Shown here: in pieces, positions 10,181 to 64,000 of the stretch | How positions within the stretch are numbered: position 1 is the stretch's first letter | Layout of the letters: each line of letters opens with the position of its first letter | NCBI RefSeq assembly: GCF_015644725.1 | Contig: NZ_CP064795.1 | Coordinates: forward strand, 1,672,501 to 1,736,500 | Source of the DNA: Salinimonas marina | GTDB lineage: Bacteria > Pseudomonadota > Gammaproteobacteria > Enterobacterales > Alteromonadaceae | Length of the DNA stretch: 64,000 nucleotides | Direction of reading: 5' to 3' | Translations under genes and position numbers: made by a program | Notes under the pieces: model-generated | The model's input: the letters and a program-made list of their open reading frames with translations, nothing else | What the model was told of the DNA's origin: nothing | Database searches by the model: none

Positions 10181-10205
10181 TTATTTTCCTAATAAAATCA
10201 ATAGT

Positions 10206-11456
10206 TTACATGATTTTGGTTTTATCTTGTGACCGTGATGTGACCATTTGGAACATTTTCGATACTGTCTCAGCCATTCCAGGCATCTCAGAATCCATCC
10301 ATCTACCGTAGTGTTTCTCGAACATCTGGATAGAGGTGTGACCCATCTCCCGCATGATCCAACGCTCAGCAACACCCTTGGTTAAAAGTTGGCTGGCGTA
10401 GGTGTGACGAGCTTGATTGGGGCCGCGGTAACGGATACCCAGTTTCTTTAGAAACGATTCAAAGAACCGCTCGCTGACTCGGGCGCTATTGATGTATGGC
10501 TCATGGGTAAATGTGTCGGTGAAGATAAAGGTGAGCTTTTCCTTTTTCTTGCGTCGTTTGTCTGCCTGAGTGACTTCGACAGTCTGGGGTCGCTGCATAA
10601 AGGTCAGGGCCTTTTGTTGCAGTAGAATGTCCCAGGCTTGATCCAATAGATGAACTGTTCTGACACTGCCTCTGGTTTTCGGTACTTTGTAATCACCGCG
10701 TACCACAGAGCGCCGAACACTCACTTCACGCTTATTGAAGTCCACGTCTTCCCAGGCCAGTGACAACCATTCAGAGATCCGTAATCCTGACCAGCAGGCA
10801 AACAGGAACCCATTACGTTCTGACTCTCGGGTTGTTTCTGTAGCACTGATTATGTCCAGTTCCGCCATCCCGAAGGGATCGGCGTTGTCCTCTGAATCCC
10901 GCTCAAGGTTTTTGACATGGGTGAGGGGGTTGAACTCAATGATGCGATCAGCCAACGCATCCTCGAAGATCCCACGAAGTGGGGTCATTATATCGTTGAT
11001 GGTTTTGTTGGATAGTTCACCCAGATCTCGTACACGCCAGGTTTTGATTTCCGACTGGAGTATTGAATCTAAGGTTCGGTGGCCAAACTTGGGGCGTAAC
11101 CGGTTATCAGCGATACCCTGATAGCCACGCCATGTTTTAGGCGCCAATGAGCTTTCCTTGGTTTTAAGCCAAACATCTAAAGCTTCATTGACGGTGGGTA
11201 CCTGTTGCACCGGCGCAAACAAATCCGCCTTCTTTGAGTCAGGAAAGTGGGAGCGATAGTTAAAGGTACCCTGGGCAATCTCATGCAGGATTACCGTGCG
11301 TTTGTTGTACGCCCATTTGATATTGGCTTTCGTGGCAGCCATATTTTTGAGCGTTTCACGACAACGTACACCTTGAAACCGAAAATCAATTGCAAGTGAG
11401 TCGCCTCGCAATTGAACCCCAGGATAACCTTTTACAAACTCAAGCAACTGACTCAT
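10206..11456 (-). CDS. int: Tyrosine recombinase / phage integrase
   Basis: About 416 residues. The order is an arm-type DNA-binding N-terminus of the DUF3596 kind (GVQLRGDSLAIDFRFQG), a core-binding SAM-like domain and a catalytic domain with R in ACWSGLRISEW, H-R in NQARHTYASQLL and Y in MFEKHYGRW. ATG 11456 (MSQLLEF) is chosen; a longer frame would overlap most of the excisionase start region. It overlaps the xis gene and its stop lies 26 bases from tRNA-Leu, the expected position for site-specific integration at that tRNA. Confidence 0.93.
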   Translation of the reverse strand: MSQLLEFVKGYPGVQLRGDSLAIDFRFQGVRCRETLKNMAATKANIKWAYNKRTVILHEIAQGTFNYRSHFPDSKKADLFAPVQQVPTVNEALDVWLKTKESSLAPKTWRGYQGIADNRLRPKFGHRTLDSILQSEIKTWRVRDLGELSNKTINDIMTPLRGIFEDALADRIIEFNPLTHVKNLERDSEDNADPFGMAELDIISATETTRESERNGFLFACWSGLRISEWLSLAWEDVDFNKREVSVRRSVVRGDYKVPKTRGSVRTVHLLDQAWDILLQQKALTFMQRPQTVEVTQADKRRKKKEKLTFIFTDTFTHEPYINSARVSERFFESFLKKLGIRYRGPNQARHTYASQLLTKGVAERWIMREMGHTSIQMFEKHYGRWMDSEMPGMAETVSKMFQMVTSRSQDKTKIM

Positions 11457-11646
11457 TGAATTCCTCGAAAAGTTGGTCGATGTTCTCATAATGATACATG
11501 ATTACACCGTGAACTTTCTTCCAATGCTGTCCTTCGATAAATTTACCGCGGTTACGGCGCTTATCCAGGGCCTGAACCGTAATACCTTTATGTTGTTCAA
11601 TGATCTCGGCGCGTACCCAGCCTAGACGAACGTAACTAATTTTCAT
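11440..11646 (-). CDS. Putative excisionase (DUF1233-like)
   Basis: 68 residues, basic, with the pattern of small phage excisionases: WVRAEIIEQHKGITVQALDKRRNRGKFIEGQHWKK reads as a winged-helix directionality factor. It lies directly before int and overlaps it, so the two are translated together. It would bias the integrase towards excision. Confidence 0.7.
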   Translation of the reverse strand: MKISYVRLGWVRAEIIEQHKGITVQALDKRRNRGKFIEGQHWKKVHGVIMYHYENIDQLFEEFNESVA

Positions 11647-11702
11647 AAAATGATTTCTCTTGTAGTAGTCGGAATGGGTCCGACGATTTTTAAGGATAAT
11701 AA
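11647..11702. promoter_or_regulatory. Divergent control region between xis and lipoprotein gene
   Basis: A 56-base gap between divergent genes with a perfect inverted repeat GTCGGA-ATGGG-TCCGAC at 11668-11684 that could be an operator. AAGGATAATAA before ATG 11703 is a good ribosome binding site for the plus-strand gene. A switch controlling integration could sit here, but no repressor gene was identified. Confidence 0.4.
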
Positions 11703-12158
11703 ATGAGATTACTCTCAGTGGTTGGTGCGGCGCTTTTGACAGTTGGGTGTACCAGTACCCCTAAATACAAAACCATGGATGCAGATACCTACACATTCTT
11801 TTCGACTCATATGTTACGAACAGAAAAGTGCTTCGTTCAGAACATGATCTCTCCAACGGAATACGCCCAGAGTAAACAAAACATCGGGTATAGTCTTAAT
11901 ACCTGGGTGTATCAACCAGATAGATTAGAGCGTGAGTACACCACTATGTATAATAGTACCTCCAGTATGACGCCATCTGCGTGTCGTGAGGTTCAAGGAC
12001 AGATCGCAGAAGCTACGCTAATTATCAACAAAGACGTAAATCGCCAACAAGCAAACGCGAATGCCCAGTCTACCCAATGGGAGCAGCTTTCAGAGATAAT
12101 GAATCAGGACAAAACCACCTGGTGCCACAAGGTGGGTTCCACAGTCATGTGTAACTAA
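11703..12158 (+). CDS. Putative lipoprotein, likely expressed in the lysogen
   Basis: 151 residues. The N-terminus MRLLSVVGAALLTVGC is a lipoprotein signal with cysteine at 16; the -3 position is T instead of the usual L. The mature part has no recognised domain but has four further cysteines that could form disulfides. It is the only plus-strand gene in the 30-kb minus-strand early block and has its own ribosome site and terminator. That is typical of a moron: superinfection exclusion or host fitness are plausible but unproven. Confidence 0.75.
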   Translation: MRLLSVVGAALLTVGCTSTPKYKTMDADTYTFFSTHMLRTEKCFVQNMISPTEYAQSKQNIGYSLNTWVYQPDRLEREYTTMYNSTSSMTPSACREVQGQIAEATLIINKDVNRQQANANAQSTQWEQLSEIMNQDKTTWCHKVGSTVMCN

Positions 12159-12190: not shown

Positions 12191-12398
12191 AGTCGAGTAC
12201 TGCTTTTAACAGCTCAATCTGGTCCCAAGACAGCTCCAGAGTAGTTGGCGTTAGTACTCCTGGACCGGCAATAGAAATTGCGGCACCTTCACCGTTTGGC
12301 CAGGAGGTCTGCTGAACGAGGGCTGTTTTATCCTCGGTCCAACGATGACGTACCTCGATCATTTCTTCCTCGACTTCTATTGGCTCAAATTCACTCAT
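12189..12398 (-). CDS. Hypothetical phage protein (69 aa)
   Basis: A small acidic protein (MSEFEPIEVEEEMIEV) with no recognised domain. Its ATG overlaps the stop of the ligase gene by ATGA, so it belongs to the same transcript. Last gene of the replication operon before the terminator. Confidence 0.6.
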   Translation of the reverse strand: MSEFEPIEVEEEMIEVRHRWTEDKTALVQQTSWPNGEGAAISIAGPGVLTPTTLELSWDQIELLKAVLD

Positions 12399-13558
12399 AC
12401 GTCCTCACGTATACGTAATGCCACCGGGTGGAACGGAATTCCGTCCGGGGTGTAGTTGAAAAATTTAACCGTAAGCATTTTGCCGTAGTTGCTTTCGGCT
12501 TCCTGAGCGTGGCGGTGCTTCTCGTACATATCACCTGGCGCGGTGACTGAGAACTGTATACCGTTAGGCGCACGACAGATGTAAATGCCAACGTCCAAGT
12601 CGTGGCGTTCATTGCGCTTACCTGTCTGGTGACCGGTAATTTCAAACTCAGCGTCCTGAAAATCCTTTTTCTTCATCAGCGAAGGGGAGCGTTTACCGTC
12701 CTCGTAGCTGTGAATGCCCTGCCGAACAATCGTTCCTTCATACCCCATACCAATGTACTTGGCGTGCAGGTCGTTCAGTTCCCGATCTGTCAACACCACG
12801 GTCGTTTCGGTTACGGTCACGCACGTAGTCACCATATTCGCATGAATATCAGATAGGACTTCATGGCGGCTCGGGTAGGGCATATCGCGTACTACGTCGT
12901 ACAGGCAGTAGCATAAATGTCGGGACTCAGGCTTGGGTTTCTTAACCAGGGAGCTAATGCGCTGCAGCGTTTCACCGTGGGCGTAGACTTCACCATCGAG
13001 CGTTTCACCTTCCCAGATACCACAGTCGAATGCGGTTTGCAGGTCGGCGCGGATATGCTCAACGTCCAGTACTTTACCCTGGCGCGAGTACAGCACCACT
13101 TGGCCGTCTTTCACTGTGGCCAGCATCCGGTGACCATCCATTTTTGGCTGGGCCAAAACGGGATAATTCCAGGCTTTAACCTTCTCAATGGGTTGGGCCA
13201 GCATCGGCTTGATGAAACCCAGTGCGTTCGTGGTCCTCTGCCCGGGCTCAGGCATCTCATAGGTGTACCCTTTGTCCAGTTTTTTACTGACTTTGGACTT
13301 AGCTTCACTGATAGCCTGCTCCAATGGGGTTGTCTCATTGGCCCGACCGATGTTCTTACCTTCAGCAGTGTAGCTATCCGTCACCACGGGCTTACCACCA
13401 AGCTTTTTGGTCGCAGTAGTACGGGTTAGGGGGTATGGGTTGATATTAAACACTTCAATTTTCCAGCTACCAATGTCGCCGTTACTATGCGTGGTAAATA
13501 GCTCCTGGCCATATTCGTAGGTACCTGCGTTCAATATATCTTCAACTTGCATGGTCAT
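12395..13558 (-). CDS. ATP-dependent DNA ligase
   Basis: 387 residues. An N-terminal WGR-like segment (GSWKIEVFN) precedes the adenylation domain with motif I KMDGHR (lysine AMP-linked), motif IIIa-like LCYCLYDV, motif IV GYEGTIVR and motif V SLMKKKDF, followed by an OB-fold. Seals nicks during phage DNA replication and circularisation. ATG 13558 overlaps the dUTPase stop (ATGA) and has GGGAG at proper distance. Confidence 0.93.
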   Translation of the reverse strand: MTMQVEDILNAGTYEYGQELFTTHSNGDIGSWKIEVFNINPYPLTRTTATKKLGGKPVVTDSYTAEGKNIGRANETTPLEQAISEAKSKVSKKLDKGYTYEMPEPGQRTTNALGFIKPMLAQPIEKVKAWNYPVLAQPKMDGHRMLATVKDGQVVLYSRQGKVLDVEHIRADLQTAFDCGIWEGETLDGEVYAHGETLQRISSLVKKPKPESRHLCYCLYDVVRDMPYPSRHEVLSDIHANMVTTCVTVTETTVVLTDRELNDLHAKYIGMGYEGTIVRQGIHSYEDGKRSPSLMKKKDFQDAEFEITGHQTGKRNERHDLDVGIYICRAPNGIQFSVTAPGDMYEKHRHAQEAESNYGKMLTVKFFNYTPDGIPFHPVALRIREDV

Positions 13559-14199
13559 AAGCAAAGCTCCCGGTAGCGTTCATTTAGTGCAGTAGCCAGT
13601 TTGGAATCCAGATCCGGATCATCCGCTGATAAGGTATCCAGGATTTCGGTCAGGTGTTCATTGTCCTCACGGCCATCCCATACCTTGACGTAGGTACCTT
13701 CTTTGTAGCCGTGGTCCTGGCGGAAGAAGTTCAGTACATTCTTGCCCACGTATTGACGGTACAGGTCATCAGTGGACATACCCGCCTGAGCCAACACATA
13801 CATGAACTCAGGTACGGATGGGTCACCGGCAGCAAGCGTGCTGATCAGATACTGCAGATTACCCAACAGGTCATTGCCTTTTACCCAAGAGGGTATGAAG
13901 CGAGCCGGGCTTGCCATATGAGTAACACTTGCCTCGGCCAATTCGAGATCGCCGTCAGAGGTGACAATCCACTCAGACAAGATGAAGTGCCAAATATCCA
14001 CCAACTCCATCCGTAGTTGGGGCATATTCGGGGTTTGTTTCTTCCACCACTTCCAGCCATGATGGTCTACGGCTTCTGCGGCTTCGAGTGTGGCAGCCAG
14101 CAGCCAGTTGTTATCAGCGTTGACCCAGTCAGGGTTAACCTTGCCGTTCATGGCTGATTGCATTGACAGCATGGTTCTAACTTGTTCTTTGGTAAGCAT
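13555..14199 (-). CDS. Dimeric (all-alpha) dUTPase
   Basis: 214 residues of the dUTPase_2 family: LEAAEAVDHHGWKWWKK and ELVDIWHF supply the acidic metal ligands, and NVLNFFRQDHGYKEGTYVK with WDGREDNEHL is the family's C-terminal signature. Hydrolyses dUTP to dUMP, which ThyX encoded two genes away can methylate. The prophage also encodes an unrelated trimeric dUTPase at 33.9 kb. Confidence 0.92.
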   Translation of the reverse strand: MLTKEQVRTMLSMQSAMNGKVNPDWVNADNNWLLAATLEAAEAVDHHGWKWWKKQTPNMPQLRMELVDIWHFILSEWIVTSDGDLELAEASVTHMASPARFIPSWVKGNDLLGNLQYLISTLAAGDPSVPEFMYVLAQAGMSTDDLYRQYVGKNVLNFFRQDHGYKEGTYVKVWDGREDNEHLTEILDTLSADDPDLDSKLATALNERYRELCL

Positions 14200-14268: not shown

Positions 14269-15126
14269 TTATTTAGAGCGCATATCCATAATTGGCATGG
14301 CACTACTACCCATAATTGTTTGTGGTAGTTTACCGTTCCACGACTGCGCTTCGGTCAGCTTTATGATTAGTGGGTTATTCTTCAACGCTTTGGCTTTGGC
14401 TTCAATAGCCTCGGCTTCGGCAAAACCTTTCATTTTAATGGACTCAGCCTGCGCCTTAGCAACTTTCATAATACCCTGGGCTTTTGCATCAGAGGTGTTT
14501 ACTTCACGTAATGCTTCTAAGCGCTGACGTTCCAGCTTATGTTCCTCAGCAGCGGCCAGGTTCTTTTCTGTCTGTTTGGTTTCAATCGAGTTCAAGTACT
14601 TTTGAGGTAAATTGATGTCCTCGATCTGCACGTTGTCTACGGTTACCGGGTAGTGGGCCATTTCTTCTTTCAGTAATGACTCAATCCTGGCAATCGCTGC
14701 AGCGCGGTCCTGAATCAAATGCTCAGCACTGTATTTAGGAATGATTTCCTTAGTCGCAGACCGAAACCGTGGGTCAAGGATACGGCTTTCAAACTGGGTT
14801 AAGCCGCCGTATGAGCGGTACAGTTCCAGGGCTGAGGTACGATCCACAGTCCAGTTCACCGATACTCTGACGGTTATTGGCATTTGCTCATCAGTAGAGG
14901 AGGCCATGGATTCCACGTTTTTACGGGTCCGTACTTCCAGTTCTTCAACTGATTCAGCGAATGGGATTTTAAAGTGCAATCCAGGTGTTTCCTGGGTCTT
15001 GGCTTCACCAAATAATTTGACGATACCTACATGACCTTCTTCGATCTGGTACATCGAGGCGGCGCCAACTATAAGACCGATTACCGTACAAACGCCGGCG
15101 ATAATATAACGTACTGATACTTTCAT
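14269..15126 (-). CDS. SPFH/prohibitin-like membrane protein
   Basis: 285 residues: one N-terminal transmembrane helix (residues 8-26), an SPFH domain (EGHVGIVKLFGEAKTQETPGL) and a long alanine/glutamate/lysine-rich coiled coil. SPFH proteins form large membrane cages that modulate proteases such as FtsH. A phage copy could protect phage proteins or alter lysis timing; this is inference. It has its own terminator. Confidence 0.88.
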   Translation of the reverse strand: MKVSVRYIIAGVCTVIGLIVGAASMYQIEEGHVGIVKLFGEAKTQETPGLHFKIPFAESVEELEVRTRKNVESMASSTDEQMPITVRVSVNWTVDRTSALELYRSYGGLTQFESRILDPRFRSATKEIIPKYSAEHLIQDRAAAIARIESLLKEEMAHYPVTVDNVQIEDINLPQKYLNSIETKQTEKNLAAAEEHKLERQRLEALREVNTSDAKAQGIMKVAKAQAESIKMKGFAEAEAIEAKAKALKNNPLIIKLTEAQSWNGKLPQTIMGSSAMPIMDMRSK

Positions 15127-15503: not shown

Positions 15504-16460
15504 CTATGAGGAAATTGATTTCCAGATTGCACTGTGCTCGGAGGCCAACATTATGTTGTCCCACTCTACAGCCAGGTCCTGGATTTCTTTTTGTGCGTGT
15601 GAATCAATGCGCTGTTGGTAAGCACGGTTCCACGCATTTAATGAGGCGGTCACATAGTAACTCGTCAACATAGACTGTGGCAAGAGGCTTCTGACCTGTT
15701 CAGGGGCAAAACCTTCCTGGATCGTTTCACCGTACAATTCTCTGAAGTCATTGTGAAACGTAGTGGTATAACCACACATGTCTTCGTTGTCCGGGTGAAC
15801 ACCGCCGGAACCCTGCTTAATAGAACCATCAGGTCTACTACGCCACTCGGCTATATCATAGAAATCAGGCGTGTCGTCCACATAGCGGCGTGACACTTCA
15901 TTGTAGGTGGTGCCTATCATGTGCTTGAAGCGCTGACGGGCAACAAAGATGGGCACGGTTTCACGCATGGTCACATCAATGAATGCCGGATCGGTTTCAT
16001 CGGTCACCTGCCACAGGTGATGCGGTTTGTCTCTGACTGGTGCGTAAGGCAGTAATGCCTTGGCGCACTCCGGGGCCACTTTGTAAATAAAGTGGATCAC
16101 GTCCAGACGGAACGCCTCTTTAATCAGGTCGTTCTTGATCAGGTGAGCCCAGCCGTACAGCGAGGTACGGAACTTGAAAATACCCTTATTTTTGTCAGTA
16201 CGCCATGCGGCTGACGCGACGTCCTCCGGGTTGATGTTTTCTAAGTCCACAAAGACAAAGTCACTGGCCAGGGTAAACCGGACATGACTGAACGGGGTCC
16301 AGTGTCGGTGTGTAGCCAGGTAGCTGACCAGACCTTCATCAGAACCCTTTGGTTTGTCTTTGCGGTAGGTGAACTCAGTCGATTCTTTATCCATGGACAC
16401 CCGGGCAGCGTTCACGGTCATCAAATCGGCACTGGTCTGTGGGATATACTCAGCTTTCAT
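15504..16460 (-). CDS. thyX: FAD-dependent thymidylate synthase ThyX
   Basis: 318 residues. The phage-type ThyX signature reads RFKHMIGTTYNEVSRRY in the C-terminal half. ThyX methylates dUMP to dTMP using methylene-tetrahydrofolate and FADH2. With the two dUTPases and the dNMP kinase it forms a thymidine-supply set. The start overlaps the preceding gene by ATGA. Confidence 0.92.
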   Translation of the reverse strand: MKAEYIPQTSADLMTVNAARVSMDKESTEFTYRKDKPKGSDEGLVSYLATHRHWTPFSHVRFTLASDFVFVDLENINPEDVASAAWRTDKNKGIFKFRTSLYGWAHLIKNDLIKEAFRLDVIHFIYKVAPECAKALLPYAPVRDKPHHLWQVTDETDPAFIDVTMRETVPIFVARQRFKHMIGTTYNEVSRRYVDDTPDFYDIAEWRSRPDGSIKQGSGGVHPDNEDMCGYTTTFHNDFRELYGETIQEGFAPEQVRSLLPQSMLTSYYVTASLNAWNRAYQQRIDSHAQKEIQDLAVEWDNIMLASEHSAIWKSISS

Positions 16461-16732
16461 TGGGTTCTCTCAAAAGTGGTTGCGTTGATATCTGTAAATG
16501 GGCGCCTGAGGTGCCGTACTTGCTCAACTAGCGTACCGTTTTGATCACGCTCGAAAATGGCAGTACGGTACCCCAGGCCCCAAAAGATATTGTTTAATGC
16601 TTTGTAGTCATGGCGGGTGAAATTCCCCCGCAGTCCCTTTACACACACCATTTTTCGGGTGGGGTAGGTAACCGTGAAGGTACAGTCTGGTCGTCGCCAG
16701 ATCTGCTGGACATTCTCTACCTCAAACTTCAT
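16457..16732 (-). CDS. Hypothetical phage protein (91 aa)
   Basis: ATG 16732 (MKFEVENVQ) is chosen because GGGAGC lies six bases upstream; a longer frame to 16789 would run inside the neighbouring gene. No domain recognised; basic and aromatic residues could suit nucleic-acid binding. Overlaps both neighbours, so it is part of the thyX operon. Confidence 0.6.
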   Translation of the reverse strand: MKFEVENVQQIWRRPDCTFTVTYPTRKMVCVKGLRGNFTRHDYKALNNIFWGLGYRTAIFERDQNGTLVEQVRHLRRPFTDINATTFERTQ

Positions 16733-17234
16733 CAGCCTGCTCCCTGAGCTGCTGATAAGTCCCATTTTGTAAGTCCTGGTACTGCTCAACAGGTACCATT
16801 ACCCATTTGGGTATGCGTTTGTGGGTAATTATCGTAATGGTTTCGTCGTCTTCGGGTATCAGTCCTTGTCTCAGTGAAGCCAATGACATAGTAGGGGCGT
16901 CTATCCCCATGCGCGGGAGATCGCGGATGCGATACTCTCTTAATTTTGCGTACACCACTTGGATACTTAACCCAAGTAGATGTGACATTTCTTCGGGCGT
17001 ATAGCCGTTGGTCCACATAGCGATTAAGGCATCTTTGTTTTGCCGTTCGCGTACTGCAGATCCACTTTCAAGTCGCCAGATTTGCCGGCGGCTCCATATG
17101 GTGTCTTTAGTAACACCGTAAATCATGGCAATTTCACTGTCTGATTTGCCGTCTGCGATGTACTGGATTACATCTTTTTTGTCACTCTCAAGAGGGGGTT
17201 TTCGTAAGATAGGAAGGGGGGATGATCTGTTCAT
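16722..17234 (-). CDS. Putative helix-turn-helix protein
   Basis: 170 residues from ATG 17234 (MNRSSPLP). Two helix-turn-helix-like segments are visible: SDSEIAMIYGVTKDTIWSRR and TPEEMSHLLGLSIQVVYAK, each like a terminase-small or Hin-type DNA-binding unit. It could be a transcription regulator or replication accessory. A 7-bp hairpin with a 3-nt loop (TTCCACA-AAG-TGTGGAA) lies at 17274-17290, 40 bases upstream. Confidence 0.6.
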   Translation of the reverse strand: MNRSSPLPILRKPPLESDKKDVIQYIADGKSDSEIAMIYGVTKDTIWSRRQIWRLESGSAVRERQNKDALIAMWTNGYTPEEMSHLLGLSIQVVYAKLREYRIRDLPRMGIDAPTMSLASLRQGLIPEDDETITIITHKRIPKWVMVPVEQYQDLQNGTYQQLREQADEV

Positions 17235-17293
17235 GGTAGGATTCTGGTAGGTCCGTGGAACAGAGCACCCCTGTTCCACAAAGTGTGGAAGGG

Positions 17294-18045: not shown

Positions 18046-18060
18046 CGCCGCTATGCGGCG
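18046..18060 (-). promoter_or_regulatory. N4-type hairpin promoter candidate (CGCCGC-TAT-GCGGCG)
   Basis: A 6-bp stem with a 3-nt loop at the stop codon of the DNA polymerase gene, 51 bases before the next start. It shares the GC-nnn-GC closing step with the other early-region hairpins. It could also be part of a polymerase-gene terminator, but no T run follows. Confidence 0.3.
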
Positions 18061-20630
18061 TCCTGGGCTCTTTTCTTCATGGCAGTACGGATAACCTCAG
18101 TTATCTCCTCACCCGTTGCCCCATTAGGCAACTCAATCTCATCCTTCCAGGTAGTGTGGAACAGTGACAACTCCCCACCTAATCCTACAGAGGGATGCTG
18201 TATTTCAGGTAGCTCCTGCCATTCCATACATTCGACCAGGTTCTTGTTTAGCCACTCCACTACCGGCACATCATCACGTACCATAAAGTACTGGGCATCG
18301 TGAATGTGGGCGATAGGTAGAATGTCGTAACGGAACTTTGAGTCGAAGACGCGTTCCTGTAGCTCAATACCTGCACGGTTGTTTAACAAACCATAGGACT
18401 GCCCTAAGGCATTACCTGCGGTCCGTGACTCTGCCTGTGCTTCGTAAGGAGTACGTTTATTCCCCATCAGGCATTGTTTAATGACCGGGGTTCTGACACG
18501 TAATCCAAAGGCCACACTGACATAACCATCCTGTGCAGCAGTATCCACCTTGGCTTTAACCCAGTTGTCCGAGTGTTCGTACAGTCTGTGGTAGTTGGCT
18601 TCAATGGACTTGGCTTCTGCTTCTGACAGGCCCAGGCCCATAAGACCGTGGTACGTCCCACCATAAGTCAGCAGAAACGTAGGTGCCTTAGATTTTTGGC
18701 GCAGATCAGGATAGAGTTTTTTGATGCTATTAATGGACTCAACATCATCAGCGTCAATATCTGGCATCTGGTTACCGAAATACCCATAGGCCCGTAGGCA
18801 GTGGCCATCAAATCCATCGGTGTATACCTTTAGTTTTTCTGGGTCGCGTGTGGTCAGTGCCGAAATTCGGTCTTCCAGTGACGCGAAATCCGCCCCCATG
18901 AACACCCAACCCGGAGGTGCTTTAAAGCACGACTTCACCAACTTAGAGTAGGTTGAGCCAGTGGATGGAATGTTTTGTAGGTTAGGACCAGAGGAACTAA
19001 GGCGCCCTGATACGGTACCACCCAGGTTGAAATTCCCATGCAGGTAGTGATGCCCATCTTCCTTAAGTACTGCTTTTTCAAAGGCAGCAATAAAGGTATT
19101 CAGAATTTTACCTGCATCAGAGTAATCAACGATGGTTTGGATCAACTCCTTGGTATCGTCCTTATGCGTCATACCATACATTTTCATCAGGGTGTCGCCG
19201 CCTACGGCCGGCGCACCAGAGTCCGTTTTATCAATGACCGGGTAACCCAGATAATCGTAAAAGAACTGTTGCATCTGCGGGTTACTGTTGGGGTTAAACA
19301 CCACATGGTGGAAGTCACTTAAGGGCTTGACCTTCTTTTTCAGTTTGGCGTTGGCCTTATCCATTTCCTGCTCACGCAGTAGATAGGTAAACTGCTGTAC
19401 ATCAGAGTGATTTTGGATGATGTCCTGGCACTGCTTAATCTTGGCTTCAAGCTCCTGTCTGGCGGCGTTTACCTGAGCCATATCCATAGGCATACCGGTC
19501 AATTCCATCTGCAGGATAACCCGTACAGACGGCTTAAAGATGCCTTCGTAGATTTCCATCTGACCGTCACGGCACATATTTTCGAAGTGTTTATTGAACA
19601 CGTACCAGGTGGCCAGGCAGTCTTTGAGTTGGTAGATCTCGAGATCTTCCTTGGACAGTTTGGTAATGTCCGTCACATCTTCGGCAAAGTTGCCGGCAAA
19701 TTCGTGTGACTGTTCTTTCAGGCTCAGTTTATTACCGGCACAGGAATTGGTGGCCAGATAGGTAATGAGCTTGGTGTCATGGAAGTCACGGGTCAGTACT
19801 TCGATACCGGCCTGCTTACCTTCTTCATCCAGTAAGTGCTGCATGAACAGGGTGTTCACCAGGATCTTCATATCGAAGTTGGCATTGTGATAAATCAGCG
19901 TACCGCGGTAGGTGTAGAAGAAATCTTTGAGCAACTGACGTACCTTACTGTTTGGCTCAGCGTAATCGTCACACCAGATCACCACACCGTTATGCTGGTC
20001 CCAGGCAAAGCCAATGGTAACCACACCGGTTTCCCAGAATTTCAGGCTCAGGGTTTCGGTGTCCACGGTCAGTGCGTCGTACTGTTTCAGCATCTCCAGG
20101 ATTTCGTATACCCAGTTCGCATCACGAATGTACTGGGCACTGTGAATGATATTGGTACCGATTTCCTGGTACTTACCCTTTAAGGCAGTGGCCAGGGTGT
20201 TCAGGCCCATATCCAGTTTGTCCTGTAGATCCGGATTGTAGAACAGCGCGGCATGGTTGACGCCCAGTACCACCTTCATATCGGTGAACCCATCAATGGC
20301 ACAGGGTAATACATAGCCGTGGTGCGGCTCGGCCTTACGTTCCTTGGTCAGGGTTTTAAAGTAGTTGGCATCGGCCACATACAGATACTCCACGCCCTGT
20401 TCCTTGAGGATGGGCAGCAGATCTTGTAAGTAGGCTTTCTGTAAGGATACTGGACATTTCCCCTTCGGTGCGTAAACCAAGTCAAAGGCAATAATGTCTT
20501 TAGACTTTAGTCCCTGCTCCTTTAGCGGCATGACATAGTGATTAGCCAGGTTGGTTTTATTTAGTGCCTGGCTTTTAATTAGAATAGCGACCCGGTAGGC
20601 CGTATTGTCCTGAAAGATAATGTGCTGCAT
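18051..20630 (-). CDS. Family A DNA polymerase with 3'-5' exonuclease (N4 gp39-like)
   Basis: 859 residues, close to N4 gp39. The exonuclease acidic pair is in LTVDTETLSLKFW (about residue 190). Polymerase motif A is MGADFASLED (about 580), motif B KSKAPTFLLTYGG (about 650) and motif C IAHIHDAQYF (about 775). The N-terminal 180 residues are specific to this phage group. It follows the gp38-like gene by two bases, the N4 order. Confidence 0.95.
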   Translation of the reverse strand: MQHIIFQDNTAYRVAILIKSQALNKTNLANHYVMPLKEQGLKSKDIIAFDLVYAPKGKCPVSLQKAYLQDLLPILKEQGVEYLYVADANYFKTLTKERKAEPHHGYVLPCAIDGFTDMKVVLGVNHAALFYNPDLQDKLDMGLNTLATALKGKYQEIGTNIIHSAQYIRDANWVYEILEMLKQYDALTVDTETLSLKFWETGVVTIGFAWDQHNGVVIWCDDYAEPNSKVRQLLKDFFYTYRGTLIYHNANFDMKILVNTLFMQHLLDEEGKQAGIEVLTRDFHDTKLITYLATNSCAGNKLSLKEQSHEFAGNFAEDVTDITKLSKEDLEIYQLKDCLATWYVFNKHFENMCRDGQMEIYEGIFKPSVRVILQMELTGMPMDMAQVNAARQELEAKIKQCQDIIQNHSDVQQFTYLLREQEMDKANAKLKKKVKPLSDFHHVVFNPNSNPQMQQFFYDYLGYPVIDKTDSGAPAVGGDTLMKMYGMTHKDDTKELIQTIVDYSDAGKILNTFIAAFEKAVLKEDGHHYLHGNFNLGGTVSGRLSSSGPNLQNIPSTGSTYSKLVKSCFKAPPGWVFMGADFASLEDRISALTTRDPEKLKVYTDGFDGHCLRAYGYFGNQMPDIDADDVESINSIKKLYPDLRQKSKAPTFLLTYGGTYHGLMGLGLSEAEAKSIEANYHRLYEHSDNWVKAKVDTAAQDGYVSVAFGLRVRTPVIKQCLMGNKRTPYEAQAESRTAGNALGQSYGLLNNRAGIELQERVFDSKFRYDILPIAHIHDAQYFMVRDDVPVVEWLNKNLVECMEWQELPEIQHPSVGLGGELSLFHTTWKDEIELPNGATGEEITEVIRTAMKKRAQDAA

Positions 20631-20632: not shown

Positions 20633-21142
20633 CTATGCCTTCATGGTATTAAGGACAAGCTGCAACTTAATCAGTTTGAGTTCTTCCTCATGTTGGTGTT
20701 TGAACTCATCAATGGCTTCCTGGGACAAGGTAGAGTAGTCCTCACCTTTATCCGGTAATGCGCTGTGAACGCAGTCGGGTAACAGGTGATACAAGTCAGC
20801 CACAGTTTTCATCTTATTAAGTGCAGCGATAATAACGCTCTCGGCGCTAAGCTGTCTGGCTTCGTGGCGTTGCCACTCATCCAAGTGGTCCGTGAACTCA
20901 TTGACCAGGGAGGGGTGCAAGGGTTTAAACTTAAACCCTGGCGCCTTCACATTTTGGTGACTGTACGCTTCACGTTTATAGCGAAAGCCTGCCAGTGTAC
21001 CGGTAAGTTCCCGGTGCTTTAGGGCAACCCGGTCAATGATGTTTTGTTTGGATTCATTGAAGGCGTTTAGGATTAAATCCGCCACGCCGTTCTTAATGTT
21101 TATTGCAAAATAACGTGAGTAGTTAGGCTGAGACTCGTACAT
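20633..21142 (-). CDS. N4 gp38-like replication-region protein
   Basis: 169 residues from ATG 21142 (MYESQPNYSRYF), which has GGGAGA eight bases upstream; the longer frame to 21238 lies inside the helicase gene. No catalytic motif recognised. Its position between helicase and DNA polymerase matches N4 gp38. Confidence 0.65.
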   Translation of the reverse strand: MYESQPNYSRYFAINIKNGVADLILNAFNESKQNIIDRVALKHRELTGTLAGFRYKREAYSHQNVKAPGFKFKPLHPSLVNEFTDHLDEWQRHEARQLSAESVIIAALNKMKTVADLYHLLPDCVHSALPDKGEDYSTLSQEAIDEFKHQHEEELKLIKLQLVLNTMKA

Positions 21143-22490: not shown

Positions 22491-22787
22491 TTAGGCGAAG
22501 GTAAGGTAGAAGGTAATACCTATTAGAGCGCCGACGATGCCGGCAATAACGCCATGAAGATTGTCTTTCTTGTGAAGGGCATCAAGCATCGCACTACGAT
22601 ACGTAACACGAAGGTCATCCAGGTGCCAGCCTTGTAGTGTTGATTCCAAATGGCGAAACGCCACCTGATAACTGATCCCTGCTTTTTGGGATAACTTTTT
22701 AGCCTGTTGAGCGCTGATGACTTTAATCATGGTGTCACGGTCCACAGATAGCGAACGCCGGTAAATCGCTTTTTGGTACTTATTCAA
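22491..22787 (-). CDS. Small membrane-anchored phage protein (98 aa)
   Basis: A basic helical N-terminal part (LSQKAGISYQVAFRHLE) and a C-terminal transmembrane helix (residues 78-97). Overlaps the VWA gene stop, so it is translationally coupled. Function unknown. Confidence 0.65.
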   Translation of the reverse strand: MNKYQKAIYRRSLSVDRDTMIKVISAQQAKKLSQKAGISYQVAFRHLESTLQGWHLDDLRVTYRSAMLDALHKKDNLHGVIAGIVGALIGITFYLTFA

Positions 22788-24946: not shown

Positions 24947-24963
24947 AACTGGCGGAGCCAGTT
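24947..24963 (-). promoter_or_regulatory. N4-type hairpin promoter candidate (AACTGGC-GGA-GCCAGTT)
   Basis: A 7-bp stem, 3-nt loop, centred 41 bases before the MoxR start. The plus strand would be the template and its loop GGA has the central purine seen at N4 virion-polymerase promoters. With +1 about 11 bases from the loop centre, the leader would be about 30 nt. Confidence 0.45.
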
Positions 24964-38375: not shown

Positions 38376-38388
38376 CGTGCGAAGCACG
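38376..38388 (-). promoter_or_regulatory. N4-type hairpin promoter candidate (CGTGC-GAA-GCACG)
   Basis: A 5-bp stem with purine loop GAA on the plus (template) strand, 82 bases before ATG 38300. Stem length, loop length and central purine all match N4 early promoters. Confidence 0.45.
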
Positions 38389-38561
38389 TGTTTCGATAAA
38401 TGAGATGAGTGACCTTGACGATGGTAGATGACAACTGTAGGCTGAGCGCCGCGAAGCCCCGTGTAGTGTTTTGTTGTGTAGTGTAAATTCAATGAACTCA
38501 CTACTAGGTAGGATATATATACTTATATAACTATATAAATATAAAGAAAAACATGGAGCGA

Positions 38562-40164: not shown

Positions 40165-40276
40165 GGTTTCTCTCTCGGGGATTTAAGAATAGGTGGTGCT
40201 AGAAACGCACCGGAAGGAGTCGTCATACTATACCAGTGTTTCTAAAAACACTAGTCCCACCTAAAAGTATCCCTTC

Positions 40277-55056: not shown

Positions 55057-56136
55057 ATGGAAGATGTATTGAATATGTCCGATGAGCAGTTCGCTGAACT
55101 GCCTATGGAAATGCCAGAAGAACCTGGCACCGAAGAAGCTGAGTATGAGCAATCTGATCCTGAGCCTGGTAGCGACAGCGACCCAGGCGTAGAAGAAGAT
55201 CATACCGGTGAGGAAGATACCGATCCTGTCTATGAAGAAGAAGCACCTCAGGAAGACGACACAGCCGAAGAAGACGACGAGCAGGGTGATGAGTCGAGTG
55301 ACGACGAAGAAGCCTCTGACGTTGATTATAAGGCCGCGTATGAACGCCTTACTGCACCGTTTAAAGCCAACGGTAAGGATATGCAGGTTGAATCTGTGGA
55401 TGATGCGATTGCATTGATGCAGATGGGTGCGAACTACAACAAAAAGATGGCAGCCTTAAAACCCAACCTCAAACTTATGAAGATGTTGGACAACAATGGT
55501 GTGCTTTCAGAAGATAAGTTATCTTTCTTCATAGATCTGGAGCAGAAGAACCCAGACGCCATTAAAAAACTCATCCGGGAAAGTGGAGTTGATCTTTACG
55601 ACGTGGATGAGAACCAGGCTGACTATAAGCCAAACACTTACACTGTTGACGACAGCGAGCTAGAACTAGATTCAGTCCTTGAGGAGATCAGGGGAACAGA
55701 TACCTACGAATCGACACTCGATGTAGTAAGCAATAAGTGGGACACGGCCAGCCGCAGAACTATCGCAGACAACCCTCATATTCTGAAACTAATCAATGAG
55801 CAAATGGGCAATGGCCTGTTTGAGCAAATTACGACAGAGATTGAGCGTGACAAAATGCTTGGGCGGTTATCAGGCGTATCTGATATCGAAGCATACCGTC
55901 AAGTAGGTGACCGACTTTATAACGCCGGCAAGTTCAACCAGAACACCGCGACATCTCCAACACAAAGCAACGGGTCTACGCCAGCAACAAGCAAGAAGAC
56001 TGTAGCAAATGCAAAGCGCAAACGTGCAGCCGCAACTCCCCGCTCATCTTCCGCTTCATCTAACCCCTCCTCATTTAGTCCCCTAAACTTGTCCGACGAA
56101 CAGTTTGAAAAAGAGTTCTCGGAGAAGTTCCTATAA
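55057..56136 (+). CDS. Scaffold-like protein (N4 gp57 position)
   Basis: 359 residues: a strongly acidic N-terminal third, then a helical domain (AAYERLTAPFKANGKDMQVE, MQMGANYNKKMAALKPNL) and a basic, serine-rich C-terminus. This layout and the place directly before the capsid gene suggest a capsid scaffold. Confidence 0.75.
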   Translation: MEDVLNMSDEQFAELPMEMPEEPGTEEAEYEQSDPEPGSDSDPGVEEDHTGEEDTDPVYEEEAPQEDDTAEEDDEQGDESSDDEEASDVDYKAAYERLTAPFKANGKDMQVESVDDAIALMQMGANYNKKMAALKPNLKLMKMLDNNGVLSEDKLSFFIDLEQKNPDAIKKLIRESGVDLYDVDENQADYKPNTYTVDDSELELDSVLEEIRGTDTYESTLDVVSNKWDTASRRTIADNPHILKLINEQMGNGLFEQITTEIERDKMLGRLSGVSDIEAYRQVGDRLYNAGKFNQNTATSPTQSNGSTPATSKKTVANAKRKRAAATPRSSSASSNPSSFSPLNLSDEQFEKEFSEKFL

Positions 56137-56152: not shown

Positions 56153-57316
56153 ATGTCTCAAATGTATAAAGATCCTGCTGGCGGAACAAATTCCACTATC
56201 GGTCCCCAGTTACGCACTGACTTCTACCAAAAGAAAGCTCTAATTGAAGCAGTAAAAGAAGAATATTTTGGTCAGTTAGCTTCTTCTAAGCACATGCCTA
56301 AGAACATGGGTAAAACCATGAAGCTGTTCCATTACCTGCCGTTGCTTGATGACCGCAACATTAACGACCAGGGTATTGATGCCGGCGGTGCAACTATTGC
56401 TGACGGTAATCTGTATGGGTCTTCTAAGGACGTTGGTACCATCAACTCTAAGATCCCACTGTTGTCAGAAACCGGTGGCCGAGTAAACCGCGTTGGTTTC
56501 AAGCGTCTGACTATCGAAGGTAAAATCGAGAAACTTGGTTTCTTTGATGAGTACACTCAAGAGTCACTGGACTTCGATACTGACGCTGAACTGATGACTC
56601 ACGTTAACCGTGAAATGGTTGTTGGTGCAGACCAGCTTACCGAAGCCATGTTACAGACTGACATTATCGAATCAGCCGGTACCATTAAGTATGCTGGCGC
56701 CGCCACCTCTAACGGTACTGTTGCCCCTGCTGACCAAGTAACGTATGACGACTTGATCAAGTTAGGCATCGACCTGGATAACAACCGTACACCTAAGCAA
56801 ACCAAAATCATCACTGGTACTCGTATCGTCGATACACATGTAATCAGCGGTGGTCGCGTAATGTACGTAGCCTCTGAGCTTGTACCTACACTTATGGCCC
56901 TTAAGGACTACCACAACGAAAAAGCGTTTGTTGAAGTTAAGCACTACGCGGCTTCTGGTAAGACTTTACGTGGTGAAGTTGGTGCAATCGCTGGCTTCCG
57001 AGTTGTAGTTCCTCTGGAGATGCAACGCTGGGAAGGTGCCGGTGCAGTGGCTGACGCTTCTGTATATGGTACTGGCGGTAATGTTGATGTATTCCCAATG
57101 TTGGTTGTTGGTGACGAATCATTCGCTACCATTGGTTTCCAGACTGACGGTAAGACCGTGAAGTTTAAGATCATCCACAAGAAGCCAGGCGAAGAAACAG
57201 CCGACCGTACTGACCCGTATGGTGAGACTGGCTTCATGGCCATCAAGTGGTACTACGGTTACCTGCCACTGCGTCCAGAGCGTATTGCGGTACTGAAAAC
57301 TGCTGCTAAAGCCTAA
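56153..57316 (+). CDS. Major capsid protein (N4 gp56 family)
   Basis: 387 residues (N4 gp56: about 400). The family signature is nearly exact: RTDFYQKKALIEAVKEEYF, MPKNMGKTMKLFHYLPLLDD, RNINDQGIDAGGATI. HK97-fold capsid shell. Followed by a terminator, giving a separate end to the highly expressed capsid message. Confidence 0.95.
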   Translation: MSQMYKDPAGGTNSTIGPQLRTDFYQKKALIEAVKEEYFGQLASSKHMPKNMGKTMKLFHYLPLLDDRNINDQGIDAGGATIADGNLYGSSKDVGTINSKIPLLSETGGRVNRVGFKRLTIEGKIEKLGFFDEYTQESLDFDTDAELMTHVNREMVVGADQLTEAMLQTDIIESAGTIKYAGAATSNGTVAPADQVTYDDLIKLGIDLDNNRTPKQTKIITGTRIVDTHVISGGRVMYVASELVPTLMALKDYHNEKAFVEVKHYAASGKTLRGEVGAIAGFRVVVPLEMQRWEGAGAVADASVYGTGGNVDVFPMLVVGDESFATIGFQTDGKTVKFKIIHKKPGEETADRTDPYGETGFMAIKWYYGYLPLRPERIAVLKTAAKA

Positions 57317-59131: not shown

Positions 59132-61537
59132 ATGGCTTACGATGTATCTGCAAGTAGTAGTGTCGTGCATTTGTACGAAGATATCCCTGATCCAGTCAGC
59201 GAATCAATTATACGTTCCGTATTAAAGGGTAATCGCCCAATATCAGGGCTTCGGGACAAGGCAATCAATGGCGTTAACTGGAGAATGGCTGCGTTTTACC
59301 AATATGGCCGTGACCACTATACGCTGGGTTTGGCGGATGAGTTAGCGACTATATACCTCACCAGGTCAGAGACAGTGGAGGGAGTCCTGGCCACACTTGA
59401 AACAGACCCTGTCACCATCGAACGGATCTCCTTAAAAGGGGCCGAACCATACCTGTTTGTCGAAGGTCACTTGGTTAAAACCCATGGCTATAACCGCTGG
59501 ACAAATACGGTGACTTCCTTACCCGGCGCCACTAAAACACAGTGGGTCACCAATCTGAGCCAATTCACCAGTGCGTGTGAAGCCAGTTTGGATACCGCTA
59601 CTGAGGCACTGAGAACAGGGATTCCCACGGATAGGACAGAAAGTAGTAGTGTAACCTACAAAGAAAAACCAGCCACAAAGGTAACCGAATATACCATCAG
59701 GGTTACGAAGACTACGCGCTTCACCCCATATGAAAAGACCTTTAACTACTTTGTGGATTACGCCCGTAACCCTGAAAAGGTAAACATTCACGAATTCATT
59801 ATCACGCTCGAAGGTCGCCAGGAACTGACCGGACGGGGCACAGGTATAATCCAATACCAAGCAACTGCACATACACACTATGTATTAGAAGATGGAAGCA
59901 AGACCCCAACCACGGTTGAGATTCTACCTGCCGTAACCAAAACTACCGGTGTCCTGCGTTACAGTGAGGTGAACATTCACACCTACACAGATGTTTTCCT
60001 GCCTGTGTTTAACCCTAGCTCTGTATATACGGTGGCTACGTATTACACGACCGACGATAAAGGTAAGAAGTCCCCTAAATACTTTATCGGAGTGACCCGA
60101 TCACCTGCGGCGTTACCTGAGGACCACTACGACATTGATCTAATACAAGAGCAGGTAACGGTCGGGGCAAGTGTAGATAATAAGTATTATCCAATGGTAC
60201 CGTTAATTAAAGACGGTAAGAACATGTTCTCACCAGACAATGTTGGCTCAGGATTGTACGAAACCAGTATAGAGCTGATGCGTAAACTGGATCTGGATGC
60301 CCTGACTATCAGTGATGCTATCCAGTCAAGCCCTGATATTGATAGTGTAGATGAAGCCTACTTCATGTTGGCAATACCCATCCGTGAAAAATCCCCCGCT
60401 GCATCCAGGTACTTCCATACCTATTTAAGGGAGTTGTACGAGGAGATGGATCACCTACACCAGGTTCCTGTATCCCCTGTAACAAACGACTTTATTTATG
60501 AGGACAGAAGATACAACTTACAGGCTATCGGTCCCAGTGAAGATAAACTGACCATGAGGATATGGGCAGATGGGTTAGGGCGACGGTTAGTAACAGGTAG
60601 GATAGGGAAACCAGGTACTGCAATATCGCAGATAGACGTTACAGGCGATATTGATAAGTTCTTCACACGAATGCAAATAAGCGAAGATACTTACGAAGAA
60701 TGTATGCTACAGAATCCCTACCATGAAAGTTACATCTATGCGGATGGCCGAATAAAGACCACGCTGCGTGATGTGATCGAAGACTTAGATAATTCTAATT
60801 TTGTGGTTCCGGTACGTCACGATCTGGTGTCTGCTATGCCTGCCTTCCTCCGGCAAGAATTGCACTATATGGCACCCATGATTATCTGCCACGCTTATGA
60901 GAAGCGTAAGTTGAAATGGTATGAGTCAACCATTTTCAAATCACTGTTGATCATTGTCTCTATTGTAGTGGCTGTATACACAGGTATGGATATATACAGT
61001 ACTTTCATTGTCGCCCTTACAGCAACCGGCAGTGTACTTTTAGCTACCGTCATTGTGATGGCGTTGGTTATTGAGCAATATCTAATAGCACTGGCCATCG
61101 GTTATTTGGTAGATTTGGTGGGCGTGGAGGCTGCATTTGTTGCCGCTGTTGCTATGGTTGTGGCCAGTTTTTACGGCGGTACGGGAATGCTGGAGAATTA
61201 CAGTCCCGCCGATATGTTGCGTATGTCTACAACCACCACGAATGCGATAAGTACTAACATTCAAAAAGACATGCTAGAATTCCAGGCAGAGGTTACCGCC
61301 TTCCAAGAGGAAGCGGAAAGCCTTATGGATGAGTTAGAACAAAAGCAGAAGTTACTGCAAAATGATGATCTAATTGATCCGTTTACCTTCGTTGATAACA
61401 CCCCCTTCAACGATTTCAAAGAATCCCCCTCCGACTATTATCGACGACAATTGAATACGAACATTGCGCCCTTAGCTTATGCAAGTATCGAGTATTTCGT
61501 TGATGCCAGTCTCATCCTCCCCAAATCTTCTATTTAG
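59132..61537 (+). CDS. Large internal virion protein with membrane segments (N4 gp53/52 position)
   Basis: 801 residues. Mostly alpha/beta with no enzyme motif, then hydrophobic helices at about 595-690 (SLLIIVSIVVAVYTGMDIYS, LLATVIVMALVIEQYLIALA, FVAAVAMVVASFYGG) and a C-terminal coiled coil. Membrane helices in a late virion protein suggest ejection into the host envelope to make a DNA channel. No clear ribosome site; the terminator lies in the leader. Confidence 0.72.
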   Translation: MAYDVSASSSVVHLYEDIPDPVSESIIRSVLKGNRPISGLRDKAINGVNWRMAAFYQYGRDHYTLGLADELATIYLTRSETVEGVLATLETDPVTIERISLKGAEPYLFVEGHLVKTHGYNRWTNTVTSLPGATKTQWVTNLSQFTSACEASLDTATEALRTGIPTDRTESSSVTYKEKPATKVTEYTIRVTKTTRFTPYEKTFNYFVDYARNPEKVNIHEFIITLEGRQELTGRGTGIIQYQATAHTHYVLEDGSKTPTTVEILPAVTKTTGVLRYSEVNIHTYTDVFLPVFNPSSVYTVATYYTTDDKGKKSPKYFIGVTRSPAALPEDHYDIDLIQEQVTVGASVDNKYYPMVPLIKDGKNMFSPDNVGSGLYETSIELMRKLDLDALTISDAIQSSPDIDSVDEAYFMLAIPIREKSPAASRYFHTYLRELYEEMDHLHQVPVSPVTNDFIYEDRRYNLQAIGPSEDKLTMRIWADGLGRRLVTGRIGKPGTAISQIDVTGDIDKFFTRMQISEDTYEECMLQNPYHESYIYADGRIKTTLRDVIEDLDNSNFVVPVRHDLVSAMPAFLRQELHYMAPMIICHAYEKRKLKWYESTIFKSLLIIVSIVVAVYTGMDIYSTFIVALTATGSVLLATVIVMALVIEQYLIALAIGYLVDLVGVEAAFVAAVAMVVASFYGGTGMLENYSPADMLRMSTTTTNAISTNIQKDMLEFQAEVTAFQEEAESLMDELEQKQKLLQNDDLIDPFTFVDNTPFNDFKESPSDYYRRQLNTNIAPLAYASIEYFVDASLILPKSSI

Positions 61538-63320: not shown

Positions 63321-63357
63321 AGCACTAAACGTGTGATCACTTTTATGGTTTAATACA

Positions 63358-63382
63358 AGAGGTACGCAACGTACCTCTTTTT
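63358..63382 (+). terminator. Terminator before the last gene
   Basis: AGAGGTACG-CAA-CGTACCTCT followed by TTTT. Gives the last gene its own transcript or attenuates into it. Confidence 0.8.
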
Positions 63383-63432
63383 ATCCCACGAAAAACACCT
63401 CCCCCTTCCTTTTTCCTTCCGAGAAAAATTGT

Positions 63433-64000
63433 ATGTCCAATCCAATGGGTCAGGACCTGACCACGAAAAAAACTCGACGTATCGAGGATAAACTTAGAAG
63501 AATGACCGGACAGAATGCAGCATTAGAGCGTTTTGCTCCGATACCTGAACCTGCGCCTGTCAGCCAACCCGCACCTACCAGTGCCTTTGAAGCGTATCAA
63601 CGCATTAAAGCCGCACGTACAACCCCACCGCCTGTACCACAAAGCAGCCGATTACCGGAACAAGCTCAGATGAGTATGGCCGGTGAGAACATGGCACCTG
63701 CCGTCAATGAAGTAGACCATTTCAAATCCCTATTGGCAGATTCTCGTCGGGCACAGGCCGAACGGCAGGACGGTAACTGGGTATCTGATCACGAACTGAA
63801 TACCACTAAAGGCCGGGCCATCCAGCTTGCTAACCGTGGTTTGAACTCGTTCCCGGCTCTGGCCGCAAAAGTCGCCACTATTCCGACAGACTCTGAGGCT
63901 TCACGCCTGTTAAGTGCCATGACGGATGAGCAACGTACTGTAATGAACAAAGTGCTGCAAGGTGATGAGCTGACTGACAAAGAACAGCAGATTGCCAGCG
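63433..64000 (+). CDS. N-terminus of probable virion RNA polymerase (N4 gp50 position), cut by window end
   Basis: The frame from ATG 63433 stays open for 189 codons to the window edge: MSNPMGQDLTTKKTRRIEDK, a basic start, then proline-rich and helical sequence. The order portal, scaffold-like, capsid, gp55, gp54, gp53/52, gp51 predicts N4 gp50 here, a polymerase of about 3,500 residues packaged in the virion. The visible part has no catalytic motif, so identity rests on synteny alone. Confidence 0.65.
   Translation, partial: MSNPMGQDLTTKKTRRIEDKLRRMTGQNAALERFAPIPEPAPVSQPAPTSAFEAYQRIKAARTTPPPVPQSSRLPEQAQMSMAGENMAPAVNEVDHFKSLLADSRRAQAERQDGNWVSDHELNTTKGRAIQLANRGLNSFPALAAKVATIPTDSEASRLLSAMTDEQRTVMNKVLQGDELTDKEQQIAS

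Follow-up and report, generated by a model that had tools for sequence, protein, structure and literature searches.

A probable temperate N4-like (Schitoviridae) provirus integrated at a tRNA-Leu gene of Salinimonas marina

How could a phage that needs an injected polymerase for its first transcription stay quiet in a bacterial chromosome, and restart from it? This question is raised by a stretch of the Salinimonas marina chromosome (NZ_CP064795.1, positions 1,672,501 to 1,736,500; 64,000 nucleotides, hereafter the window), where genes resembling those of Escherichia phage N4 (NC_008720) lie beside a tRNA-Leu gene. Relatives of N4 are usually regarded as lytic. An initial annotation of the window nevertheless proposed an N4-like phage with a tyrosine integrase and an excisionase, integrated at the tRNA. 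Comparison of the locus with its relatives confirms the integration of an N4-like element at this site. The element is very probably the provirus of a temperate phage of the family Schitoviridae, with a life cycle that can be outlined from its genes.

The provirus extends from window position 10183 to extended position 82201, and measures 72.0 kb between its two attachment (att) sites. Extended positions continue the numbering of the window beyond 64000, and position x of the record L005 equals 63500+x. The right part of the element, which lies outside the window, ends in the att repeat that the initial annotation had proposed to look for: a second tRNA-Leu 3' end, at contig position 1754672-1754701. 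This copy (attR) shares exact blocks of 19 and 13 nucleotides (nt) with the copy in the tRNA gene (attL), and differs from it by a single C. All 59 same-genus genomes searched, the own genome included, match some part of a query of 601 bases taken from around the tRNA genes. Over its tRNA-Cys/Leu part, most of the best listed stretches end at or near window position 10182, which is weak evidence alone, the query having reached just 18 bases beyond. In four of the five same-genus genomes that were fetched (L154-L157), the left host flank and several stretches of the right one are co-linear in a single locus of 14-15 kb, from which the provirus is absent. A DNA-level search for phage relatives with the first 24 kb gave 23 matching records, and the 20 listed match at the tRNA-Leu only. 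The G+C content of the provirus is 0.476, versus 0.478 and 0.482 in the flanks, and a search for direct repeats near attL and attR, as possible arm sites of the integrase, found none. Two further observations concern the host side of attR. The stretch at extended 82736-83775 matches the fifth relative (L158) and not the other four, and is perhaps a mobile gene; at approximately L005 18841-18900, a near-identical short sequence is present in two copies (GGACAGTCACTTTT..AAAACGACTA).

The gene order of the provirus suggests how it came to be inserted. In N4, gp1-gp49 are read rightward, gp50, the gene for the virion RNA polymerase (vRNAP), to gp69 leftward, and gp70-gp72 rightward. In the provirus, attL is followed by the integrase (int), excisionase (xis), DNA polymerase, helicase, gp25, gp24 and RNAPII genes, then by gp69, terminase, portal, capsid and vRNAP, and lastly by a single-stranded DNA-binding protein (SSB), Sak4, primase, exonuclease, a winged-helix-like protein (extended 80910-81365) and attR. 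The virion ends of N4 are joined inside the provirus, at about 38-40 kb, while the map is opened between gp39 (DNA polymerase) and gp42. Relative to the N4 virion map, that of the provirus is circularly permuted, which is the outcome expected when a circular phage DNA is inserted through an attachment site in its interior (attP). Once joined and reopened, the two orders are the same; N4 differs in having no PF00589 integrase, and the provirus carries int and xis where N4 has gp40-gp41.

G453, a non-integrated metagenomic genome from IMG/VR, spans 73,480 bases and lacks any exact end repeat of 15 bases or more; ARAGORN finds no tRNA gene in it. Its map starts near the early genes and stops just past gp69, which corresponds to the N4 virion map minus the last genes. 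Here xis and int are followed by TTGATTTTATTAGGAAAATA-G-TGGTGCCCGGGGCCGGACTTGAACC and then by the exonuclease gene. The 20-nt flank on the int side, TTGATTTTATTAGGAAAATA, is identical to the attL side of the provirus, and the adjoining 25-nt core is identical to attR. G453 is a free relative carrying an uninterrupted attP. In a second free genome, G437 (71,350 bases, end repeat of 91 nt), 19 nt between the exonuclease and integrase genes match the 3' end of a Marinobacterium tRNA-Leu(taa) gene. Of the marks of a temperate phage with a tRNA-targeting tyrosine integrase, three are observed: an attL/attR repeat at a tRNA 3' end, an empty chromosomal site (attB) in relatives, and attP in a free form.

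Similar insertions occur in other genera. An att repeat was found in four of the five other chromosomal relatives. Alteromonas sp. BMJM2 carries a provirus of 72.7 kb with the same gene order, bounded by a 30-nt repeat at tRNA-Leu(gag). The remaining repeats are of 50 nt at tRNA-Cys in a Burkholderiaceae metagenome-assembled genome (76.3 kb), 46 nt at tRNA-Cys in Xenophilus (42.9 kb, deleted) and 16 nt at tRNA-Leu(gag) in Dyella (70.1 kb). In Marinobacterium, the integrase gene directly follows tRNA-Leu(taa), and no second site was found up to the contig end. With the window's provirus included, four of the six insertions are at tRNA-Leu and two at tRNA-Cys. The cut between gp39 and gp42 recurs in BMJM2 and the Burkholderiaceae genome, and the gp39 side of it in Marinobacterium, where the contig stops before the other side. 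The maps of Dyella and Xenophilus are opened elsewhere: in Dyella the cut falls between gp16 and gp24, and in Xenophilus, which also has a deletion, between gp25 and gp24.

Genes were named from PHROG and Pfam scans and from tblastn searches with 37 proteins chosen from the 72 annotated in N4, of which 22 are matched in the provirus, 22 in BMJM2 and 23 in G453. The N4-type content proposed at the outset holds well, with strong PHROG matches for RNAPII, the MoxR-type ATPase, helicase, DNA polymerase, terminase, portal and capsid. From the proposed order of helicase, gp38 and DNA polymerase, the first and last stand, but the supposed gp38 has no tblastn match to N4 gp38, and belongs to phrog_4881, where no function is assigned. 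The N4-type capsid, portal, terminase, DNA polymerase, primase and SSB genes lie in N4 order, the heterodimeric RNAPII is encoded by two genes (gp15 and gp16), and the 72.0 kb compare with 70-79 kb in 19 isolate records, all as in Schitoviridae. A tree of capsid and portal proteins (51 rows, quick IQ-TREE, without an outgroup from another family) places the provirus among Schitoviridae isolates; the terminase, DNA polymerase and RNAPII, which the initial annotation had suggested as phylogenetic markers, are assigned by family-model and tblastn matches. In this tree, the provirus pairs with BMJM2 (support 100), and both fall in a set of nine with Marinobacterium, three IMG/VR rows and the isolates VBP47, pYD6-A and pVa5. 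These isolates, of the Fuhrmanvirinae and Pontosvirinae, have no integrase, and their capsid identity is about 63%. Fourteen inner branches are open, so the fine order is uncertain.

The life cycle of such a phage would have to accommodate the transcription programme of the group. According to published work on N4, vRNAP is injected together with the DNA and recognises hairpin promoters whose 3-nt loop has a central purine; what it transcribes leads to RNAPII, and RNAPII products in turn lead to SSB, which turns the host polymerase to the late genes. By analogy, injected vRNAP would transcribe the present phage from DNA hairpin promoters, and the linear DNA would circularise via its ends. The integrase, whose gene closes the leftward array of early/middle genes, would then join attP to the 3' end of the tRNA-Leu gene by recombination. 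A lysogen would lack vRNAP, and its hairpin-dependent early genes and the downstream N4 cascade would be silent. The switch is probably set by one or both of two helix-turn-helix (HTH)-type proteins whose genes lie next to attP and int, and excision would use the same integrase plus the excisionase.

Candidate promoters of the required kind are present. Hairpins were sought on the non-template strand as C-TTC-G or C-TCC-G with a stem of at least 5, with 20 first-order resamplings as controls. The provirus has six (resampling mean 1.05, maximum 4), N4 four (0.5, 2), BMJM2 nine (1.1, 4), Marinobacterium three (0.6, 2) and Xenophilus seven (0.7, 3). Counted without controls, there are eight in G453 and four in G437. 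A TCC hairpin stands directly before gp15 in four of nine genomes (N4, the provirus, BMJM2 and G453), and one stands before gp24 in the provirus and G453. That these hairpins act as promoters is an inference.

Two DNA-binding-type proteins appear to occur mainly in integrase carriers. The winged-helix-like protein (151 amino acids), on the far side of attP from int, occurs in four of 37 records (BMJM2, G453, G437 and G446, all with integrase) and in none of the 19 isolates; it is missing from Marinobacterium and from five of the seven integrase-bearing IMG/VR contigs. Its model (mean predicted local distance difference test score, pLDDT, 72.7) resembles a winged helix. A fold search gave no match at E<=0.001, the best being a RepL-like protein (E 0.0065) and a MarR-family protein (E 0.015), and Pfam gave nothing above chance. 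Because of the RepL-like match, the protein could equally be a replication initiator. The double-HTH protein, whose two HTH domains are modelled with pLDDT near 90, has strong matches in six of 47 records (BMJM2, Marinobacterium, G453, G437, L261 and L263) and weak ones in two more, and one weak match (3.8e-4) is in the isolate Ab2712. It is missing from six of the seven integrase-bearing IMG/VR contigs and is present in L263, though no integrase was seen in the part read, and is therefore not strictly tied to integrase. A fold search with its model gave no match at E<=0.001 (best E 0.18). A possible SOS control was rejected as unsupported: the window has five LexA-like sites against a mean of 2.47, and 12 of 100 shuffles reach as many. 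A promoter scan on the attR side gave one site versus 3.6 expected.

Several observations weigh against a temperate phage with this life cycle. The account is read from sequence, with no virion, induction or excised circle seen. L158, the fifth same-genus genome, has no match to the right flank save one stretch in the possibly mobile gene. The hairpin rule was derived from loops first noticed in N4, and was compared with published requirements only afterwards; TTC-loop hairpins may also be terminators. No clear hairpin excess is found in Dyella (two, mean 1.75, maximum 4) or the Burkholderiaceae genome (three, mean 0.65, maximum 3), and the rule detects no hairpin before gp15 in Dyella, Burkholderiaceae, Marinobacterium, Xenophilus and G437. 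A Pfam scan of 31 small proteins gave no match to a repressor of the CI or S24 type. Finally, the vRNAP gene, which the initial annotation expected downstream and which is indeed there, is split over two frames. The family trait is a giant vRNAP of about 3500 amino acids, and the gene is a single open reading frame (ORF) in BMJM2 (3587 amino acids) and G453 (3551 amino acids). The tRNA at attL also lacks one base: the C run between its T-arm and acceptor has three C, whereas there are four at attR, at the G453 attP and in the tRNA-Leu 3' ends of all five fetched same-genus genomes.

The last two points bear on whether the element is still functional. Given the split vRNAP, this copy may be defective. 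In the stronger form of this idea, an N4-like prophage that used to be temperate is in decay: the split in vRNAP and the change in the tRNA are true mutations, and infectious particles are no longer produced from this copy; we give this somewhat less than even weight, and it would qualify rather than replace a temperate origin. The deleted 42.9-kb relative in Xenophilus is consistent with such decay, as are the intact vRNAP frames and the four-C sites of the relatives. On the other hand, in an unsystematic comparison with BMJM2, no main gene besides vRNAP appeared split, and both vRNAP pieces are free of cysteine, which suggests recent constraint. The two ORFs together span 3662 residues without a cysteine, and there is likewise none in the vRNAPs of N4, BMJM2 and G453, versus 5.6 per 1000 residues in the called proteins of the provirus; a cysteine-free vRNAP is a published trait in LUZ7 and LIT1/PEV2. 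A host gene at window 2804-2980 also changes frame relative to two same-genus relatives, possibly through an assembly indel. A second complete tRNA-Leu(taa) gene was sought in the own genome and none was found, two other tRNA matches being cag and caa, so real loss of tRNA-Leu(taa) function would be costly. The split vRNAP and the short attL tRNA may each reflect either an assembly indel or real decay.

If the provirus is that of a temperate phage, its lysogeny might be gated by vRNAP and not by a lambda-type repressor. The integrated DNA would be silent by default, as its early genes would need an enzyme borne by the particle, and the proteins on the attP side would steer the decision to integrate, or the restart through vRNAP, without being a master repressor. 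This seems doubtful, and is weakened because the gp15 hairpin is missing from five of the nine genomes.

The integrase and excisionase, whose position next to the tRNA-Leu is borne out by Pfam, PHROG and ARAGORN, might alternatively stem from another element, for instance a satellite or an island, inserted next to N4-like phage DNA. Of the phage integrases listed, the 30 best do come from phages of other types, with identities of 31-38%. Among the nearest annotated ones listed is that of Pseudomonas phage phiCTX (37.6%), a phage of another kind than the N4-like ones. By tblastn at E 1e-3, the provirus integrase also has no match in four N4-like proviruses outside Alteromonas, so the integrases of N4-like proviruses are not one close family. 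However, BMJM2 and G453 carry homologous int and xis genes at the same place within the N4 gene order (integrase identity 63% and 72%, respectively), and an origin in another element is very improbable.

Integrase carriage is uneven across the group. A PF00589 integrase is found in none of the 19 isolates (N4 included), in seven of 17 IMG/VR contigs over 60 kb, and on the capsid-bearing contig in five of ten genomes. The 17 contigs were drawn from at least 80 loci and some are maybe incomplete, so absence there is weak evidence; among the genome loci, integrase was searched in ten of 23, and long stretches were read in five. On 46 tested tree rows (13 with integrase), the integrase state requires at least 8 changes, versus 9-13 in 60 label shuffles. 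The integrase-bearing members thus cluster yet do not form one clade, and repeated gain or loss follows. N4-type RNAPII (phrog_2051) exceeds 150 bits in two of 394 genomes of the order and one of 369 of the class, the own genome in both (six and three, respectively, with weaker matches), and the capsid model matches seven of 395 genomes of the family, with 439 bits in the own genome and at most 228 in the others. Some bacterial assemblies also contain N4-like contigs (L017, L018, L020, L021 and L023) that measure about 73-76 kb and lack an integrase; they may be free phage DNA, a carrier state or contamination. Such contigs, present in five of the ten genomes examined, could suggest that lytic N4-like DNA entered the present assembly through contamination or chimeric joining, but this is rejected on junctions and flanks as extremely improbable, since the provirus lies within a single 3.77-Mb contig, with host flanks that are adjacent in relatives, att repeats and a permuted map.

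The idea that a temperate member would represent a distinct lifestyle for the group was part of the initial annotation. The temperate reading is supported, but its novelty is reduced, as N4-like proviruses were already reported in 2023 (PMC10654107). That mSystems survey reports 40 integrated N4-like proviruses, mainly in Moraxella, and 54 genomes with lysogeny marker genes. Like the present case, it concerns bacterial contigs that contain an N4-like genome together with marker genes of the integrase type; its main text differs in having no mention of 'attL', 'attachment site', 'integration site' or 'repressor', and its sole mention of 'tRNA' concerns host prediction. New relative to it are the att sites at base level, attP, the permutation, candidate hairpin promoters retained in a provirus, and the two DNA-binding-type proteins. 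No description of the att sites of a Schitoviridae provirus was found in the titles or abstract openings of the literature searched, on which this claim of novelty rests. One paper gives att primers for CRP-3, classed there among non-N4-like phages (PMC6918029), and another names N4-like phages as background (PMC8224337). The Alteromonas phages A5 and R22Y, set beside the provirus by description, are N4-like, and are reported as lytic and without integrase. With att sites placed to the base, attP present in a free genome and proviruses in several genera, what was a claim based on gene markers becomes a testable site-specific integration system.

Table 1. Positions of the att sites, genes and candidate promoters of the provirus (window numbering; extended positions lie outside the window)
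Feature	Position	Strand	Basis or remark
tRNA-Leu(taa)	10094..10179	+	Chromosomal integration target, 3' end = attL; ARAGORN, fold
attL core, 29 nt	10154..10182	+	Exact repeats of 19 and 13 nt with attR
Tyrosine integrase, 416 amino acids	10206..11456	-	phrog_1 2e-52; Pfam Arm-DNA-bind_2, Phage_integrase
Excisionase, 68 amino acids, overlaps integrase	11440..11646	-	DUF1233 2e-6; phrog_539 2.8e-7
ATP-dependent DNA ligase	12395..13558	-	phrog_114 2.3e-74
NTP pyrophosphohydrolase	13555..14199	-	phrog_173 2.9e-21
Lipoprotein, N4 gp20-like	14269..15054	-	phrog_200; 21% to N4 gp20
Thymidylate synthase	15504..16460	-	phrog_23580 5.5e-70
Double-HTH protein, weakly Phd/YefM-like tail; candidate lysogeny regulator	16722..17279	-	Family A4; weak Pfam; model
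DNA polymerase (N4 gp39)	18051..20630	-	phrog_17 1.5e-154; 47% to N4
Helicase (N4 gp37)	21123..22412	-	phrog_325 8.4e-110; 35% to N4
N4 gp25-like protein	22780..23892	-	phrog_1314; 31% to N4 gp25
MoxR-type ATPase (N4 gp24)	23901..24914	-	phrog_1297 1.4e-119; 43% to N4
Hairpin, TCC loop, stem 7; candidate vRNAP promoter	24947..24963	-	Directly upstream of gp24-like gene
AAA ATPase	32997..33797	-	phrog_5534
dUTPase	33851..34288	-	Pfam
N4 RNAPII, gp16 part	34926..36134	-	phrog_2051 3e-129; 33% to N4
N4 RNAPII, gp15 part	36375..37277	-	phrog_2166 3.4e-86; 40% to N4
Hairpin, TCC loop, stem 6; candidate vRNAP early promoter	37303..37317	-	Directly upstream of gp15 gene
Hairpin, TTC loop, stem 6; candidate early promoter	38375..38389	-	
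Divergent intergenic gap, near joined N4 virion ends (gp72 side, gp1 side)	40165..40276		N4 map, gene order
N4 gp69-like protein	40277..40975	+	phrog_2109 3.6e-98; 48% to N4
Large terminase (N4 gp68)	40965..42581	+	phrog_38 2e-99; 55% to N4
Holin	43567..43854	+	Phage_holin_3_1 1.3e-23
Tail fibre protein	45795..50426	+	PHROG matches
Portal (N4 gp59)	52514..54619	+	phrog_1216 4.2e-246
N4 gp57-like protein	55057..56136	+	phrog_2120 1.2e-112
Major capsid protein (N4 gp56)	56153..57316	+	phrog_1357 7.6e-131; 57% to N4
N4 gp53-like protein	59132..61537	+	phrog_2220 1.2e-95
vRNAP N-terminal ORF, 916 amino acids	63502 to extended 66252	+	phrog_2206
vRNAP second ORF, 2746 amino acids, other frame	extended 66279-74519		Matches N4 vRNAP structures 8.5e-60
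attR, 30 nt	extended 82172-82201 (L005 18672-18701)		Partner of attL; outside window

Some minor features of the provirus and its relatives complete the picture. A CsrA homologue is encoded inside the provirus at 26679-26876 on the minus strand (Pfam CsrA 2.6e-23), and has no tblastn match in BMJM2. The short ORF at 45020-45214, also on the minus strand, presumably encodes a glutaredoxin-like protein, by the look of its sequence, and has a 64% match in BMJM2. Among the IMG/VR records, the 47-kb contig L263 (IMG/VR 3300032087_002399) is a mosaic, in which an N4-like module of DNA polymerase and helicase lies beside structural genes that are unmatched in the provirus.

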